Part shown: one piece after another, positions 28,095 through 37,526 of the stretch
Position numbering within the stretch: position 1 is the first letter of the stretch
Layout: each line of letters opens with the position of its first letter
Origin: Arcobacteraceae bacterium
GTDB lineage: Bacteria > Campylobacterota > Campylobacteria > Campylobacterales > Arcobacteraceae
Direction of reading: 5' to 3'
DNA: 64,000 bases
Assembly (NCBI GenBank): GCA_021107755.1
Contig: JAIOSF010000003.1
Span: 1 to 64,000 of the forward strand
Made by a program: the position numbers and the translations under genes
Notes under the pieces: model-generated
Database searches by the model: none
Seen by the model: only the letters and a program-made list of their open reading frames with translations
Told to the model about the DNA's origin: nothing

Positions 28095-28736
28095 TTAACT
28101 TGCTAATACATCTTCACCAAATACATCTTCTCTAATATGTCTTTTTTTCACATAGTTATTAAGCCCGATATGATTGTTATAACCAAGAACTTTTGCTATT
28201 TTTCTTACACTTAATCCAACACTCAATAGCTCTTCAATTTTATCTCTTTGTTGATCAAACTTTGATTTTTGAATTGTACCTTTTGGTTTTCCTAAAGATA
28301 CACCATCTAGTTTTTTTGCAGTTAGTGCTTCTTTTGTTCTTAAACTCATTAAATCTTTTTCAAGATTTATAGTCATACCAATCACACCAAGAATCATTTT
28401 TGTAAGCATATCATCACTACTAACAAAATCTAAATTTTGAGATACACTAATAATTCTTACCCCATGACTTAATAAAAACTTTATATTTTTTAATATAGAA
28501 GCAGTTGTTCTTCCAAAGACATTAATATCATATACAACAACCACACAACCATTTTTACATGTTTCTAATATCTTTTGAATATTTGTTTCTTCATCTGGAA
28601 TACTCACTTCAACTTCGATATTTTTATCTAATTGTAGCTTACGCTCTTTGATGTATTTTGCAATTCCTATTGCTTGTGCATCAGTATATTCATCATTATT
28701 TTTATTTACCCTTATAAAACTTACAACTTTTTCCAT
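28095..28736 (-). CDS. Serine-recombinase-like protein lacking the catalytic serine
   Basis: 213 residues. The N-terminal ~140 residues follow the resolvase/invertase fold (VVSFIRVNKNN; VVVVYDINVFGRTT; GVRIISVSQNL; an E-helix with TKEALTAKKLDGVSLGKPKG), and the C-terminus has a Hin-like helix-turn-helix (LSVGLSVRKIAKVLGYN). At the position of the nucleophile in YxRVST the sequence is RVNK, and one of the two conserved arginines of DRLxR is lost (DINVFGR). It therefore probably binds DNA without cutting, perhaps as a regulator. No inverted repeat pair flanks an invertible segment that I can see. Confidence 0.72.
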   Translation of the reverse strand: MEKVVSFIRVNKNNDEYTDAQAIGIAKYIKERKLQLDKNIEVEVSIPDEETNIQKILETCKNGCVVVVYDINVFGRTTASILKNIKFLLSHGVRIISVSQNLDFVSSDDMLTKMILGVIGMTINLEKDLMSLRTKEALTAKKLDGVSLGKPKGTIQKSKFDQQRDKIEELLSVGLSVRKIAKVLGYNNHIGLNNYVKKRHIREDVFGEDVLAS

Positions 28737-30587: not shown

Positions 30588-32207
30588 TTAGAAAGAGGTT
30601 AATGAGGGTTTAGGTATAGGTGCTGAAAAATGGTACCCTTGAGAATAAGTAGTCCCTAGATCTTTTGTTATTTGAAAGATCTCTTCACTTTCAACATATT
30701 CTGCTATTGTTTTGAGATTTAAACTTTTTGCAAATTCAATAATTGTTTTAACCACTTTATAACTATTTTCATCATGTGCTATATTTTTTATTAAAGAAGC
30801 GTCTATCTTTAAATAATCTACATTCATTTTTAATAGGTGTTCAAAATTTGAATATCCACTTCCAAAATCATCAATTGCTACTTTACAACCAAGAGCTTTT
30901 ACCTCTTTTATAAAGTCAAATAATAGATCATAGTTTTTAATACCTTCATCCTCTAGTATCTCCCAAACAACCCTACTTGCAACATCATATTTCTGTAGTT
31001 TTTCTTTTACAAAATCTATAAAATCACTATCTTGAATATCTTCATAAGAAACATTAATTGAAAATTCAAAATCTAAATTTTCAAACTGTTGAAATGATTT
31101 TTCTATCACTATTTTGGTAATATTTGCATACTGGTTTGCTTTTTTAGAAACTTCTAAAAAGAAAAAGGGTGCTATAACTTTCCCCTCATCTAACATTCTT
31201 ACTAAACACTCATACTTATCAACTTTCATCGTTTCATTGTTTACTAAAGGTTGAAAATAGACAATTATATTATCGCTATCCATAGCTTTTTTAAGCTTTT
31301 TAGTCCATAACATATTTTTTTCATATTCTCTTATATTATCAAGCTCTTCATAAAATACTAAATAATTTTTATGTTGCTGCTTTGCTGCATGTAAAGCTAA
31401 ATCAGCAGTGATAAGCTTATTGTTTTTTGGTGAAAATGTTATTCCTGCTGTTGCTCGTATATCAATCTCATGTTCACCTTCATAAATCACATTACTTTCG
31501 ATAGAACCTAAGGTAAACATTACCATATCTTTAAAATCTTGCTTAGTTAAACCTACATTTGCTAAACAATATACATCTGCTGAGAATTTATAAAGGATAA
31601 TTTTGTCTTTTACAAACTTAATCATCTCGTTAATAATACCAACAACTTTTTTTAAAATAACATCCCCTATTCTATGTCCAAAAAAATCATTAATCTCTTT
31701 AAAAGAATTAATATCAATTACTGCTAATGCATTTATTCCTAAATCGGCATTTTGTACATCATGAATTAGTTTTGCTCTATTTGGTAATTGTGTAAGATTA
31801 TCTATGTAAAGAAGTTTTTTTATATTACTTTCATGTTCTAACTCTTTTTGATACAACATCTTACAAAACTTTATTTTGTTAAATACTATATATTCATATT
31901 GTTTTATATCAATAATATCATAAATTAACAGATGGTTAAATTGTTCAAGATTATCATACTCGCCAACGAGTAAAATTGGTATTTCATCAGATTTTGTATT
32001 ATGTTTTAATTGTAATTCATTTAAAATATCTAATCTAAAATAATTAGTATTTACAATGATTATATGTATATTATAAGACTCTAGATACTTTTTAATTGCA
32101 TCTTGATTATGCCCATGGTAAATTGCCTTGTCACTTATTGATGCCAAGATATCTGTTGTAAGATAAAAATTAGAATTATCATCAATCAGTAATATATTAT
32201 AAATCAT
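30588..32207 (-). CDS. EAL-domain c-di-GMP phosphodiesterase with degenerate receiver and GGDEF domains
   Basis: 539 residues. Residues 1-~110 look like a receiver fold (LLIDDN near the start), but the phosphorylation site position reads VNTN, with Asn for Asp. A GGDEF-like domain follows (IDNLTQLPNRAKL at its start), but the signature is FSADVYC, so cyclase activity is lost. The EAL domain (about 290-539) keeps its essentials: ECLVRM, Asn in INVSYED, Glu in VWEILE, DDFGSGYSN, LKID and AEYVES. It should degrade c-di-GMP; the dead domains may sense a ligand or allosterically control it. It converges on tmk with almost no space between. Confidence 0.88.
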   Translation of the reverse strand: MIYNILLIDDNSNFYLTTDILASISDKAIYHGHNQDAIKKYLESYNIHIIIVNTNYFRLDILNELQLKHNTKSDEIPILLVGEYDNLEQFNHLLIYDIIDIKQYEYIVFNKIKFCKMLYQKELEHESNIKKLLYIDNLTQLPNRAKLIHDVQNADLGINALAVIDINSFKEINDFFGHRIGDVILKKVVGIINEMIKFVKDKIILYKFSADVYCLANVGLTKQDFKDMVMFTLGSIESNVIYEGEHEIDIRATAGITFSPKNNKLITADLALHAAKQQHKNYLVFYEELDNIREYEKNMLWTKKLKKAMDSDNIIVYFQPLVNNETMKVDKYECLVRMLDEGKVIAPFFFLEVSKKANQYANITKIVIEKSFQQFENLDFEFSINVSYEDIQDSDFIDFVKEKLQKYDVASRVVWEILEDEGIKNYDLLFDFIKEVKALGCKVAIDDFGSGYSNFEHLLKMNVDYLKIDASLIKNIAHDENSYKVVKTIIEFAKSLNLKTIAEYVESEEIFQITKDLGTTYSQGYHFSAPIPKPSLTSF

Positions 32208-32251: not shown

Positions 32252-33046
32252 CTAGCTAATGATTGCACTTAAATAACCAACAACACGACTTTTGTCACCG
32301 CTAGTGTCAGCACTTGTTCTATAATCAATAATTTTTGTTTTTAAAGTAAGTTCTTTTGCAACTTTTAACATAGCTTTAATACCAATCATACCGCAGGCCT
32401 CACAACCTTCATTCAATAATTTAATATCTTTTTTCTGTATAGCTTCTACACAAATACTATCTTTTACTTTTGCTTCTTCTAGGGTATAAAAATGGCTTAG
32501 ATCACTACTAATTACAACTAAATTTTTTTCATCTTTCATCAAATACTCAATAACTTTAGCAATATTGTTAAAATCACAATCGCTATAAACCATCTCCACA
32601 ACTTCCACATTACCAGCATAATATTTTATAAAAGGAAATTGCGTTTCTGTTGAGTGTTCACAATGTACTTTATCATCAAATCCTAAAAAGTCAAATTTAT
32701 CTATAAGTTTCTGGGTTAACTTTCTATTTATAACTAAGTCTCCAAAAGGTGTAGGATAACTATCATATAAAGCAACACTTGCACCACTAAATGCAAACTT
32801 ATGGGAAGGTCCAATCACTATAATATTTTTTATATCTTGTGGTATATATCTATAGACCATATTTGCAGTAAACCCACTATAGATATATCCAGCATGTGGT
32901 ACTATTATCGCTTTTGAGTCTATTGTTGTATCTGTTGTAATATTATTCTTTTCTAATACTTGATTAAAATGCTCTATATATCTTGCAACTTCATCTTTAT
33001 CATTTGGATAAAAAGTACCTGATACTGCCAATTTTCTCTCACTCAT
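32252..33046 (-). CDS. AmmeMemoRadiSam system protein B (MEMO1 family)
   Basis: 264 residues with the MEMO fold of the LigB dioxygenase superfamily: AVSGTFYPND, IIVPHAGYIYSGFTA (first metal-like His), GPSHKFAFSGA (second), CEHSTETQFPF (third), and ISSDLSHF. The conserved histidines are all present. It lies in an operon with the radical SAM and AMMECR1 proteins (4-bp overlap). Human MEMO1 has been linked to metal handling and redox, but the bacterial reaction is not established; the three-gene association is the named AmmeMemoRadiSam set. Confidence 0.92.
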   Translation of the reverse strand: MSERKLAVSGTFYPNDKDEVARYIEHFNQVLEKNNITTDTTIDSKAIIVPHAGYIYSGFTANMVYRYIPQDIKNIIVIGPSHKFAFSGASVALYDSYPTPFGDLVINRKLTQKLIDKFDFLGFDDKVHCEHSTETQFPFIKYYAGNVEVVEMVYSDCDFNNIAKVIEYLMKDEKNLVVISSDLSHFYTLEEAKVKDSICVEAIQKKDIKLLNEGCEACGMIGIKAMLKVAKELTLKTKIIDYRTSADTSGDKSRVVGYLSAIIS

Positions 33047-33909
33047 AATAACCCTCCTACATTTCCTAAATAGATATTTTTCAATCCTGCACGATATCCT
33101 ATCTCTCTTGCTTTTTTTAGAATCTCTATTGATGTTCTAGGCAAATCCATCTCTTTATAATCTGGATGAAAAGCTGAAATATGCCAAACTATATCAGATC
33201 CTAGTTCATTTGCAATAAAAGATGCAATCTCTTCTAACTCCTTTTCACTGTCATTTTGTGTAGGGACAATAAGTGTGGTAATCTCTGTATGGATACCCTT
33301 TTTTACAAAGAACTTGAGATTATCCAAGATAACATCAAGCTTTCCTCCAAGATTTTTTTTATAATATTTCTCATCAAATGATTTTAAATCAACATTAAGA
33401 GCATCTATAAGCCCAACCATTGAAGTTCTTACTTCAGATGATTCAAAACCATTGGTTACCATAATATTTTTTAAGCCATTGTGATGTGCTAAATTAGCTA
33501 TATCTTTAATATATGGAAAAAATATTGTTGGTTCATTGTAAGTATATGAGATAGATTCACATTTATAATGTAAAGCAAGATCTACTATATTTTGTGGAGA
33601 ATAGTATTGTTTTTTATTTATTTTATCTGTTTGGGAGAGTTGCCAGTTCTGACAAAAAGAGCAATGAAAGTTACATCCAACTGTCCCTATAGAAAAAGTT
33701 TTTGTTTGAGGCAAAAAATGGTACAAAGGTTTTTTCTCAATTGGATCAATATTTATGGCATTTGGATACCCATATACTAAACACTCTATTTTGTCCCCTA
33801 CATTTTTATTTACTTTACAAAGTCCAACCTGTCCTTCGTTTATATTACAATAGTGTCCACATAAAAGACACTTTATTTTATCGTTTGAAGTTGGTTCATA
33901 AAAATTCAT
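33043..33909 (-). CDS. amrS: AmmeMemoRadiSam system radical SAM enzyme
   Basis: 288 residues. An N-terminal Cys cluster (CLLCGHYCNI..GQVGLCKV) is followed by the radical SAM CX3CX2C motif in GCNFHCSFCQNWQLS, a SYTYNEPTIFF segment and MVTNGF, as in PflA-like activases. It binds a [4Fe-4S] cluster and S-adenosylmethionine; substrate unknown. Its stop overlaps the MEMO gene start by 4 bp and AMMECR1 lies one base upstream. Symbol follows the common AmrS name for this subfamily. Confidence 0.92.
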   Translation of the reverse strand: MNFYEPTSNDKIKCLLCGHYCNINEGQVGLCKVNKNVGDKIECLVYGYPNAINIDPIEKKPLYHFLPQTKTFSIGTVGCNFHCSFCQNWQLSQTDKINKKQYYSPQNIVDLALHYKCESISYTYNEPTIFFPYIKDIANLAHHNGLKNIMVTNGFESSEVRTSMVGLIDALNVDLKSFDEKYYKKNLGGKLDVILDNLKFFVKKGIHTEITTLIVPTQNDSEKELEEIASFIANELGSDIVWHISAFHPDYKEMDLPRTSIEILKKAREIGYRAGLKNIYLGNVGGLL

Positions 33910-33910
33910 T

Positions 33911-34474
33911 TTATTGCTCCATAATTTTATCTACTTTATAGGTAAATATCTCCGGTGCCTCTTCAACTTTTGCTGGGTCTAGTCCAGCTTTTTGAAAAAG
34001 ATGTACCATAAAACTATCAAAATCAGGAAGCTGTTCCCATACTTGTGGTAAAAAGGTTCCTTGATGTTCTCCTAATCTTAAAATAACACCATCTTCACCT
34101 GCTACTATTTTTGTTCGTAAATCATCAAAACCATTGTAAACAACCTTTTTTATAGGTCCAATAATAGATATCTCAATTTTAATCTGCTCAAATTCCTCTT
34201 TTGTTAAAGGGCTAAATCGAGGATCTTCAAATGCGGCTTTTCTAGCATTTGTAGTTAAATCATCAAATAGTGTTGTATGAGGAACAAGTGAACCAATACA
34301 TCCCCGTAAATTTCCATCTTTAGTGATAGTTACAAAAGTTGCGCCCATCTTAGAAAAATTTGGAAGTTTCTTTAAGAAGTCCTCTTTTTTTAATGTTTGC
34401 TTATCATTCAAGTTATCAAATATGGTAATCCTAACTAAATCTATTAATAATTTTCCAACAGTTTCTATCTCCAT
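33911..34474 (-). CDS. AmmeMemoRadiSam system protein A (AMMECR1 family)
   Basis: 187 residues. The family-defining LRGCIGS motif is present (NLRGCIGSLV), with FVTITKDG before it and the Cys-independent C-terminal FLPQVWEQLPD segment. AMMECR1 proteins are conserved from archaea to humans but have no established reaction; the Cys in the motif has been proposed as functional. First gene of the three-gene operon, divergent from metG. Confidence 0.92.
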   Translation of the reverse strand: MEIETVGKLLIDLVRITIFDNLNDKQTLKKEDFLKKLPNFSKMGATFVTITKDGNLRGCIGSLVPHTTLFDDLTTNARKAAFEDPRFSPLTKEEFEQIKIEISIIGPIKKVVYNGFDDLRTKIVAGEDGVILRLGEHQGTFLPQVWEQLPDFDSFMVHLFQKAGLDPAKVEEAPEIFTYKVDKIMEQ

Positions 34475-34548
34475 TACTACAACCTTTTCTAATTTAGTTT
34501 ATTATAGCAAATAATAATCATTTCATCAATCTATAAAAAAAATTTAGA

Positions 34549-34590
34549 TATAATCGCGGATAATAATATAAAGAATAAAGAAATTCAAGG
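34549..34590 (+). promoter_or_regulatory. Putative metG promoter and ribosome site
   Basis: TTTAGA-TATAAT with the -10 at 34549-34554 predicts a start near 34561. AAGGA at about 34586-34590 precedes the metG ATG (34598) by 7 bases. The divergent AMMECR1 gene begins at 34474, so this 120-bp gap serves both. Confidence 0.5.
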
Positions 34591-34597
34591 AACACAA

Positions 34598-36569: not shown

Positions 36570-37526
36570 ATGCAAATAACTGCACTTACAGATATAGTTG
36601 AGGGGAAACTTTTAAATACCCCCTCAATTTCTTTCGTAACACAAATACATACAAATCTTGCAAAAGTCAATGAGGGAGATGCTTTTTTTGCTACTGAAGT
36701 AGAGGATATTCCAAAAGCGATAGAAAAAGGTGCTTTTGCCATAATATATGAGTTTGAAACTGATATTGTAGACAATGAAATAGCTTGGATACAAGCTGAT
36801 AATATAGAAAAAGCTATATGTAATATTTTAAGATTTAATCTTCTAAAACATAATATTAAATATATCCATACAAATAAAGTATTTTTCAAACTCTTAAATA
36901 CTTTTAAATCAAAAGAGCTTTCATATATAGTAACTTTAAAAGATAATTTGTTTTCAGACTTTGAGCTTTTAAATAGTATCATTGAAGATAAAATAGTTTT
37001 TGGTACAAACTATGATTTTCTTGAACTTATTGGTGCAGATATACTCTCTTTGGAAAATAAGATTTATAATGTAAAAAACCTTACAAGTCACTCTCTATTT
37101 GAAACCTCTTTCTCTTATAAAGACAAATTTTTTGATAAGATAAAAATACCAACTGTATATATCAATGACCTGTTACAACAACTAGAACTTTTTGAGTACA
37201 AAGTTGACTTAAAACGCCTCAATAGTTTTAATCTCTTTAAACCTATTTTTATCAATAAAAGTAACCAAATAGTACAATTTGGTCAAACAAATAGATTTAT
37301 CATAGCAAATGAAGATAAAGATATTTGTGACATAGAGATAAGCTATCTCAAAGAACACTATAGCTACGCCAATATAAAAGTTATCGATACAACATATTAT
37401 GATGAAGATGCAATCTTTAATTATATAAAAAACAATAACTTTAATGCCTTGTATCTTTGTGGTACAAATCATAAAACAATTATAAGAATTCTTGAAAACA
37501 ACTATGATGACAATAGACTTTTGTAA
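36570..37526 (+). CDS. Protein with a Mur-ligase N-terminal-like domain
   Basis: 318 residues. The start resembles the UDP-sugar-binding domain of MurE/MurF: VNEGDAFFATEV, then AIEKGAFAIIYE, but the central ATP-binding GTNGKT loop of Mur ligases is missing. The rest (FGTNYDFLELIGADILSL; YLKEHYSYANIKVIDT) is unlike the ligase core. It may be a truncated, non-catalytic paralogue that binds a nucleotide sugar, or another fold altogether. It begins 10 bp after metG and is followed closely by a repeat protein, so all three may be cotranscribed. Function not assigned. Confidence 0.6.
   Translation: MQITALTDIVEGKLLNTPSISFVTQIHTNLAKVNEGDAFFATEVEDIPKAIEKGAFAIIYEFETDIVDNEIAWIQADNIEKAICNILRFNLLKHNIKYIHTNKVFFKLLNTFKSKELSYIVTLKDNLFSDFELLNSIIEDKIVFGTNYDFLELIGADILSLENKIYNVKNLTSHSLFETSFSYKDKFFDKIKIPTVYINDLLQQLELFEYKVDLKRLNSFNLFKPIFINKSNQIVQFGQTNRFIIANEDKDICDIEISYLKEHYSYANIKVIDTTYYDEDAIFNYIKNNNFNALYLCGTNHKTIIRILENNYDDNRLL

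Follow-up and report, generated by a model that had tools for sequence, protein, structure and literature searches.

An intact AmmeMemoRadiSam operon from an Arcobacteraceae bacterium encodes a radical SAM enzyme without the C-terminal Cys4 module

AmmeMemoRadiSam is a known, named system, and the locus described here, which lies in a 64,000-nucleotide stretch of DNA from an Arcobacteraceae bacterium (the window), is an intact operon of that system with the gene order AMMECR1, radical SAM enzyme (rSAM) and MEMO, in which the rSAM lacks its C-terminal Cys4 module, a metal-binding tail. A trio-operon rSAM without Cys4, as a variant of the known system, is what is new here. Three intact open reading frames, all on the minus strand and free of stops and frameshifts, span positions 32252–34474. 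Each product scores above its curated NCBIfam cut-off, with 181.3 bits for AMMECR1 against TIGR04335 (cut-off 99), 313.7 bits for rSAM against TIGR04337 (cut-off 220) and 243.4 bits for MEMO against TIGR04336 (cut-off 26). Pfam agrees, bearing out the identity proposed in the initial annotation, and an NCBIfam search recovered the divergent metG that it had also named. That annotation described the genes as adjacent and overlapping; they are adjacent, but only MEMO and rSAM overlap, by the 4 bases (33043–33046) shared between the MEMO start and the rSAM stop, whereas rSAM and AMMECR1 are separated by a 1-base gap. It had further called the operon complete, with intact signature residues, which holds for the key residues of all three proteins but not for the C-terminus of rSAM. 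Throughout, "family" and "class" refer to taxonomic groupings of the genome sample around the window genome. The features are as follows.

33911–34474, minus strand: AMMECR1-family protein (AmmeMemoRadiSam protein A), 187 aa, first gene of the operon; TIGR04335, PF01871.
34298–34300, minus strand: codon of Cys59 within the conserved AMMECR1 motif LRGCIGS, from a column comparison with relatives.
33043–33909, minus strand: radical SAM enzyme, 288 aa, with a PFL-activase-like core and without the C-terminal Cys4; TIGR04337, PF04055.
33817–33870, minus strand: rSAM N-terminal CxxCxxxCx9C (C14, C17, C21, C31), from aligned relatives.
33652–33675, minus strand: rSAM radical SAM motif CxxxCxxC (C79, C83, C86), from alignment with relatives.
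33043–33066, minus strand: truncated rSAM end, GNVGGLL-stop; relatives extend about 45 residues further, with CxxC...CxxC.
32252–33046, minus strand: MEMO-family protein (AmmeMemoRadiSam protein B), 264 aa; TIGR04336, PF01875.
34475–34597, no strand assigned: intergenic region between AMMECR1 and the divergent metG, with a promoter-like TTGATG-N17-TATAAT at 34529–34501 on the minus strand.

The TTGATG-N17-TATAAT sequence is a weak candidate for the trio promoter, and promoter-like sites in this intergenic region show no excess (29 versus a shuffle mean of 28.4). The nearest named rSAM loci come from Arcobacter sp. and Campylobacterales assemblies, at no more than 66% identity. Horizontal import of the trio was considered and rejected, as trees of poor resolution group the window trio with early-branching members of its own family and of a neighbouring one. 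Beyond the trio, a GGDEF/EAL protein (30588–32207, minus strand) is encoded on the same strand 44 bp after MEMO and is possibly a fourth operon gene; the MEMO-EAL pair is also kept in the same-genus genome G249 (61% identity). Genes of the c-di-GMP type adjoin AMMECR1 elsewhere (HD/PAS regulators in L073 and L090, GGDEF in L130), and such genes are common. After metG, the gene at 36570–37526 (plus strand), initially called Mur-like, was not recognised as Mur, and its 318-aa product has no Pfam or NCBIfam match at E ≤ 0.001; G249 has a counterpart of the protein (58%), and L134 has a weakly similar one beside metG (30%). By eye, a 213-aa protein encoded at 28095–28736 (minus strand) looks serine recombinase-like.

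The window MEMO keeps 54 of the 55 columns that are at least 95% conserved in class-sample relatives, and AMMECR1 keeps 36 of 37 columns conserved to the same degree in 65 relatives, Cys59 among them. In a profile alignment built from 18 MEMO proteins, His51, His82 and Cys218 fall on His49, His81 and Cys244 of human MEMO1 (7kq8); the three residues are invariant in the 18 aligned relatives and constitute a predicted metal site. Conservation reaches past the three ligands, and the MEMO pocket as a whole is strictly conserved, as is LRGCIG of AMMECR1. Human counterparts exist for both AMMECR1 and MEMO, and in open-licence PMC papers we found no shared reaction for the two in print. Part of one report (PMC11081632) describes human MEMO1 as binding iron through H49/H81/C244, binding copper as well, and modulating iron homeostasis; for the substrates tried, that part gives no dioxygenase activity. 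Metal binding without a reaction, together with the metal-gene context of the family described below, would fit an AMMECR1-MEMO pair that buffers iron or copper rather than acting as an enzyme; rSAM would then be linked to it loosely, as a client requiring MEMO for iron only. We consider this very unlikely, as the strict conservation of the entire MEMO pocket and of LRGCIG argues against it, as do rSAM-MEMO fusions. As a separate observation, an AMMECR1 that occurs without MEMO and rSAM (L084:5818-6369, genome G207) reads LRGSFGS for LRGCIGS and has lost the conserved cysteine, a change seen in one of five AMMECR1-only rows examined.

The window rSAM keeps 85 of the 96 columns strongly conserved in class-sample relatives, and 85 of 90 within the core; six of the 11 departures are the missing C-terminal columns and five are core substitutions (G32K, I91L, Y131F, A134I and D163S). 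The N-terminal C14, C17, C21 and C31 are all kept in the aligned relatives, whether Cys4-bearing (147/147) or Cys4-less (5/5), and all seven N-terminal and radical-SAM cysteines are kept across the five Cys4-less proteins. The predicted structure (mean pLDDT 90.5) forms a complete barrel whose best solved match is PFL-AE (3cb8; Z 25.1, rmsd 2.2, 225 aligned residues, 16% identity), followed by NifB (Z 18.7). Foldseek placed the same three PFL-AE entries on top and a sequence profile search likewise returned PFL-AE first (E 2e-11), while the N-terminal 42 residues were hardly covered by PDB matches. PFL-AE acts on a protein glycine. A PFL-AE-like fold in the model does not establish the same reaction, and the score of 54 bits against the PFL-AE family TIGR02493 lies below the cut-off of 231.75.

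The rSAM also shows weak sequence similarity to TYW1, and RlmN-like folds are among its structure matches, consistent with a trio that modifies a nucleobase, a tRNA or a separate peptide, AMMECR1 binding the macromolecule and rSAM and MEMO acting in turn. An MnmC2-like gene adjoins AMMECR1 in G074 (L128), mnmC2 and mnmG lie near AMMECR1 in G013 (L130), and Burroughs and co-workers, in a 2019 study cited in PMC7159879, reportedly tied Memo systems to the modification of nucleotide bases and isoprenoids. Fusions of RiPP-recognition elements to Memo-like proteins are also mentioned in part of one paper (PMC12710340). However, the mnm neighbourhood was seen in two loci only, hemH and metal genes make up the context in the family, and the nearest solved relative of the rSAM acts on a protein; we regard a nucleobase, tRNA or peptide substrate of this kind as unlikely. 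Two further groups of rSAM relatives were seen. A second subtype (L076:7177-8202 plus a further 17 rows in the rSAM tree), about 47% identical and 337 aa long, forms a separate clade, has a tail with GHIGQYVTN and adjoins an alanine dehydrogenase gene in G293, while frames of about 600–700 aa in G209, G056, G206, G235, G248 and G123 match the rSAM family at 114–131 bits, below the cut-off, and represent a larger, distant relative. The recurrent operon neighbours of distant lone rSAMs form only small clusters of 2–4 loci and include methyltransferase, endonuclease III-like, archease and PCMT genes.

The window rSAM matches TIGR04337 from position 2 to position 286 of 349, and the missing module corresponds to approximately positions 287–349; the module is typical of the TIGR04337 family and lies outside its curated membership criterion. 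The C-terminal CxxC...CxxC is present in 73/73 other full-length rSAMs extracted from the class sample, leaving the window protein the sole exception among 74. Of 80 named rSAM loci, 74 carry the module. Four of the six that do not (L162, L167, L177 and L181) have a clean end at the GN[IV] boundary where the window protein stops, the tail of L158 is atypical and L176 runs off its contig; the latter two, with tails atypical or cut off, were excluded from the comparison of Cys4-bearing with Cys4-less proteins and from the loss tree. On that tree, built without the tail, the module must have been lost independently at least four times. In L162, L167, L177 and L181 the rSAM has neither AMMECR1 nor MEMO next to it, and the window holds the only Cys4-less rSAM within a trio operon among the loci examined. 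We also searched the window genome with a tail profile for a separate gene encoding the module; no credible copy was found (best E 0.34), and supply by another gene was rejected. Because L134, the sister of the window rSAM on the tree, keeps its tail and lies near metG, the tree suggests that the move into the metG neighbourhood preceded the loss of Cys4. One substitution, W207 to His, is found in 4/5 Cys4-less versus 13/147 Cys4-bearing rSAMs (Fisher p 0.0005, for a column picked from all columns), and three of four phylogenetically independent pairs are concordant (sign test p 0.25), which is suggestive only of W207H compensating for the loss; a tie between loss of D163 and loss of Cys4 was rejected, the position being variable. 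Such a natural Cys4-less rSAM offers a ready minimal enzyme for reconstitution. In the Clostridiales assembly at L181:5509-6860, a short gene of the LigB/Memo fold (PF02900, E 3e-17) comes after the lone Cys4-less rSAM, a further pairing of the rSAM family with the MEMO/LigB fold.

In the same-genus genome G249, EAL and MEMO come first, other genes then take up about 7.5 kb, and an rSAM remnant, an AMMECR1 remnant and metG follow in that order. Its rSAM and AMMECR1 each carry several frameshifts and stops, beside open frames on the same contig for MEMO (265 aa, 65% identical to that of the window), EAL (543 aa) and MetG (692 aa), and the rSAM remnant ends at GNIG, aligning only up to the end point of the window protein. 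The breaks may be an assembly fault confined to that stretch; the assembly is 84% complete, in 360 contigs. The genus is represented by two further assemblies, 85% and 61% complete, and neither gave a match to the AMMECR1, rSAM or MEMO families. Together with the missing Cys4, these remnants could mean that the window copy is decaying, with the truncation a first step and the sister species the next. This is improbable in our view: the window trio has no stop or frameshift, its strongly conserved columns are kept almost throughout (36/37 in AMMECR1, 54/55 in MEMO and 85/90 in the rSAM core), the rSAM is confidently modelled as a complete barrel, and the contrasting genome is itself incomplete and fragmented. 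The idea that the window's AMMECR1 and rSAM evolved faster than its MEMO was rejected, the MEMO branch being equally long (0.56) without G249.

Across 104 family genomes, AMMECR1 passed the cut-off in 76, MEMO in 71 and rSAM in 47. In the co-occurrence tally that follows, G249 was excluded from the AMMECR1 and rSAM counts, as was G331, a fragmented assembly with rSAM and AMMECR1 fragments below the cut-off and MEMO not found. All 49 rSAM genomes of the window's family (counting as rSAM the fragments below cut-off in G287 and G291) contain both MEMO and AMMECR1, and in the 58 class genomes outside the family that have rSAM, MEMO is found in 58/58 and AMMECR1 in 57/58. Conversely, rSAM is absent from 21 of the 70 family genomes that have AMMECR1 and MEMO, which then lie 15–30 bp apart. 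AMMECR1 stands alone in six family genomes, one of them cut by the contig start (AMMECR1 lies near a contig start in G294, G295, G291 and G336), and MEMO without an intact AMMECR1 is found in one, the congener G249. On the MEMO tree the presence of rSAM changes seven times, at least four of them on starred branches; rSAM has thus been lost or gained at least four to seven times. A single open frame of 592–605 aa encodes a fusion of rSAM with MEMO in 16 family genomes. No column at least 95% conserved with rSAM fell to 70% or less without it, either in AMMECR1 (59 versus 20 rows) or in MEMO (56 versus 20), a comparison in which G105, with AMMECR1 only, fell by default into the rSAM-bearing group. 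Since rSAM always occurs with MEMO, 21 genomes keep AMMECR1 and MEMO without rSAM, and no columns are relaxed there, rSAM depends on MEMO and not vice versa in these samples. Likewise, rSAM is dispensable for AMMECR1 and MEMO, because 21 of 70 genomes lack it and that of G249 is broken. The initial annotation had named loss of one component in close relatives as evidence against the set; such losses do occur, and they do not refute a functional set.

The main rival to our own reading casts rSAM as an activase whose target is a residue in MEMO or AMMECR1, for instance near the C-terminal RVVGY of MEMO, which we take to resemble the glycyl-radical motif RV[SC]GY. The PFL-AE-type core, whose nearest relative has a protein substrate, the RVVGY-like ends of MEMO, the rSAM-MEMO fusions and the fact that rSAM was never seen without MEMO in the family or the rest of the class all point in this direction. 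Yet VVGY is kept in genomes without rSAM, which leaves a glycyl-radical role for this end unsupported, and the absence of relaxed AMMECR1 or MEMO columns in those genomes is mildly against an activase, although a site conserved for other reasons would escape the comparison. On balance we give the activase a low probability.

AMMECR1 lies directly after hemH (ferrochelatase), within 200 bp, in 60 of 76 family genomes. The usual family order is P1B-type ATPase, FixS, cytochrome c, ABC ATPase, hemH, AMMECR1, rSAM where present and MEMO, followed by an ElyC/DUF218 protein, a metal ABC transporter, CvfB and thiol peroxidase, a neighbourhood of cbb3-oxidase-maturation and metal-transport genes. Where rSAM lies more than 5 kb from AMMECR1 or on another contig (G134, G278, G293, G332 and G335), AMMECR1 remains beside hemH in 5/5. 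In the window genome the part of this cluster that begins with the P1B ATPase and ends with hemH lies on another contig (L113), where hemH is followed by unrelated genes and the trio is absent. Thus the earlier statement that the context gives no obvious clue is right for the window genome but not for its relatives. In the same cluster (L113:7778-8952) the small cytochrome c appears to have expanded into a 273-aa protein of three repeats, and a copy of 99 aa lies next to it. Outside the family, hemH was within 200 bp of AMMECR1 in 0/46 genomes of the class (46 of 59, the 13 without hemH among the matches listed being excluded), and the neighbours there are pyruvate oxidoreductase, luxS, mnmC and mnmG genes and AraC regulators. 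Because the linkage is unseen outside the family and other families have other neighbours, it probably goes back to a single ancestral operon that many genera have retained. The linkage agrees with the iron role of human MEMO1 given in the part of PMC11081632 cited above. A literature search for AMMECR1 with ferrochelatase found no paper, and in the open-licence papers searched we found no discussion of the hemH linkage or of the one-way dependency.

The reading we favour, tentatively, is that AMMECR1 and MEMO form an iron-linked core, that a PFL-activase-like rSAM acts upstream of MEMO and that the set has a role in heme or iron supply. We infer the core, the step order (rSAM before MEMO), the heme or iron role, the docking role of Cys4 and the substrate as follows. 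AMMECR1 and MEMO would form the core, AMMECR1 as an obligate partner with a conserved cysteine and MEMO as a putative mononuclear iron protein (His51, His82, Cys218) with an extradiol-dioxygenase fold. The rSAM would be an add-on upstream of MEMO, using its PFL-activase-type core to cleave SAM at the C79/C83/C86 cluster and take a hydrogen from the substrate, and would hand its product to MEMO, its fusion partner in many relatives. In the window's family the AMMECR1 gene comes immediately behind that of ferrochelatase, and for this reason the pathway there would most likely serve iron or heme supply. The Cys4 module, lost independently at least four times, would be dispensable for the radical step and would probably dock a partner or the substrate, so that its loss could be tolerated.

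Several observations count against this heme/iron-supply reading. Only one family shows AMMECR1 adjacent to hemH, an arrangement that may represent a single inherited operon, and the neighbours in other families differ from hemH and metal genes. The nesting is broken in control genomes, as Haloferax volcanii matches AMMECR1 but not MEMO and Thermus composti has a MEMO match without AMMECR1, and MEMO stands alone in G249. Among distant named rSAM loci MEMO is nearby in 22/80 and many lack it. Finally, the part of PMC11081632 cited above gives no detected dioxygenase activity for human MEMO1 with the substrates tried. The one-way dependency and the hemH-AMMECR1 linkage make the favoured reading testable, through a heme or iron phenotype and through the order of rSAM before MEMO. 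In a bolder form, AmmeMemoRadiSam would be a heme/iron-supply pathway next to ferrochelatase with the Cys4 tail as a detachable docking module, whose repeated loss, here in a trio operon with W207H (4/5 Cys4-less), would mark an enzyme form of its own, working with a different partner or electron donor; this we regard as a long shot.

A search of open-licence PMC papers, which was not exhaustive, found no published reaction for the trio, in line with the initial annotation. Among known proteins, PFL-AE (3cb8) is the closest solved fold of the window rSAM core, and the likeness is one of fold only; the window rSAM falls short of the family cut-off, has an extra N-terminal Cys4 region, and no glycyl-radical enzyme was identified beside it. 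By alignment, the window MEMO would share the His/His/Cys site of human MEMO1 (7kq8), but the bacterial copy differs in sitting with an rSAM. Unlike LigB-type/class III extradiol dioxygenases, whose 2-His-1-Glu ligands are given in part of PMC11081632, the window MEMO has Cys218 instead of Glu. Archaeal AMMECR1-family structures (1zq7, 1wsc and 1vaj) match most of the window AMMECR1 (E 2e-21 to 4e-14). The AmmeMemoRadiSam system (TIGR04335, TIGR04336 and TIGR04337) is the closest likeness to the locus as a whole: all three parts exceed the curated cut-offs within a single operon, and the order AMMECR1-rSAM-MEMO recurs in other families of the class, whereas the window locus differs in its rSAM without the C-terminal Cys4 module and in adjoining metG rather than hemH.
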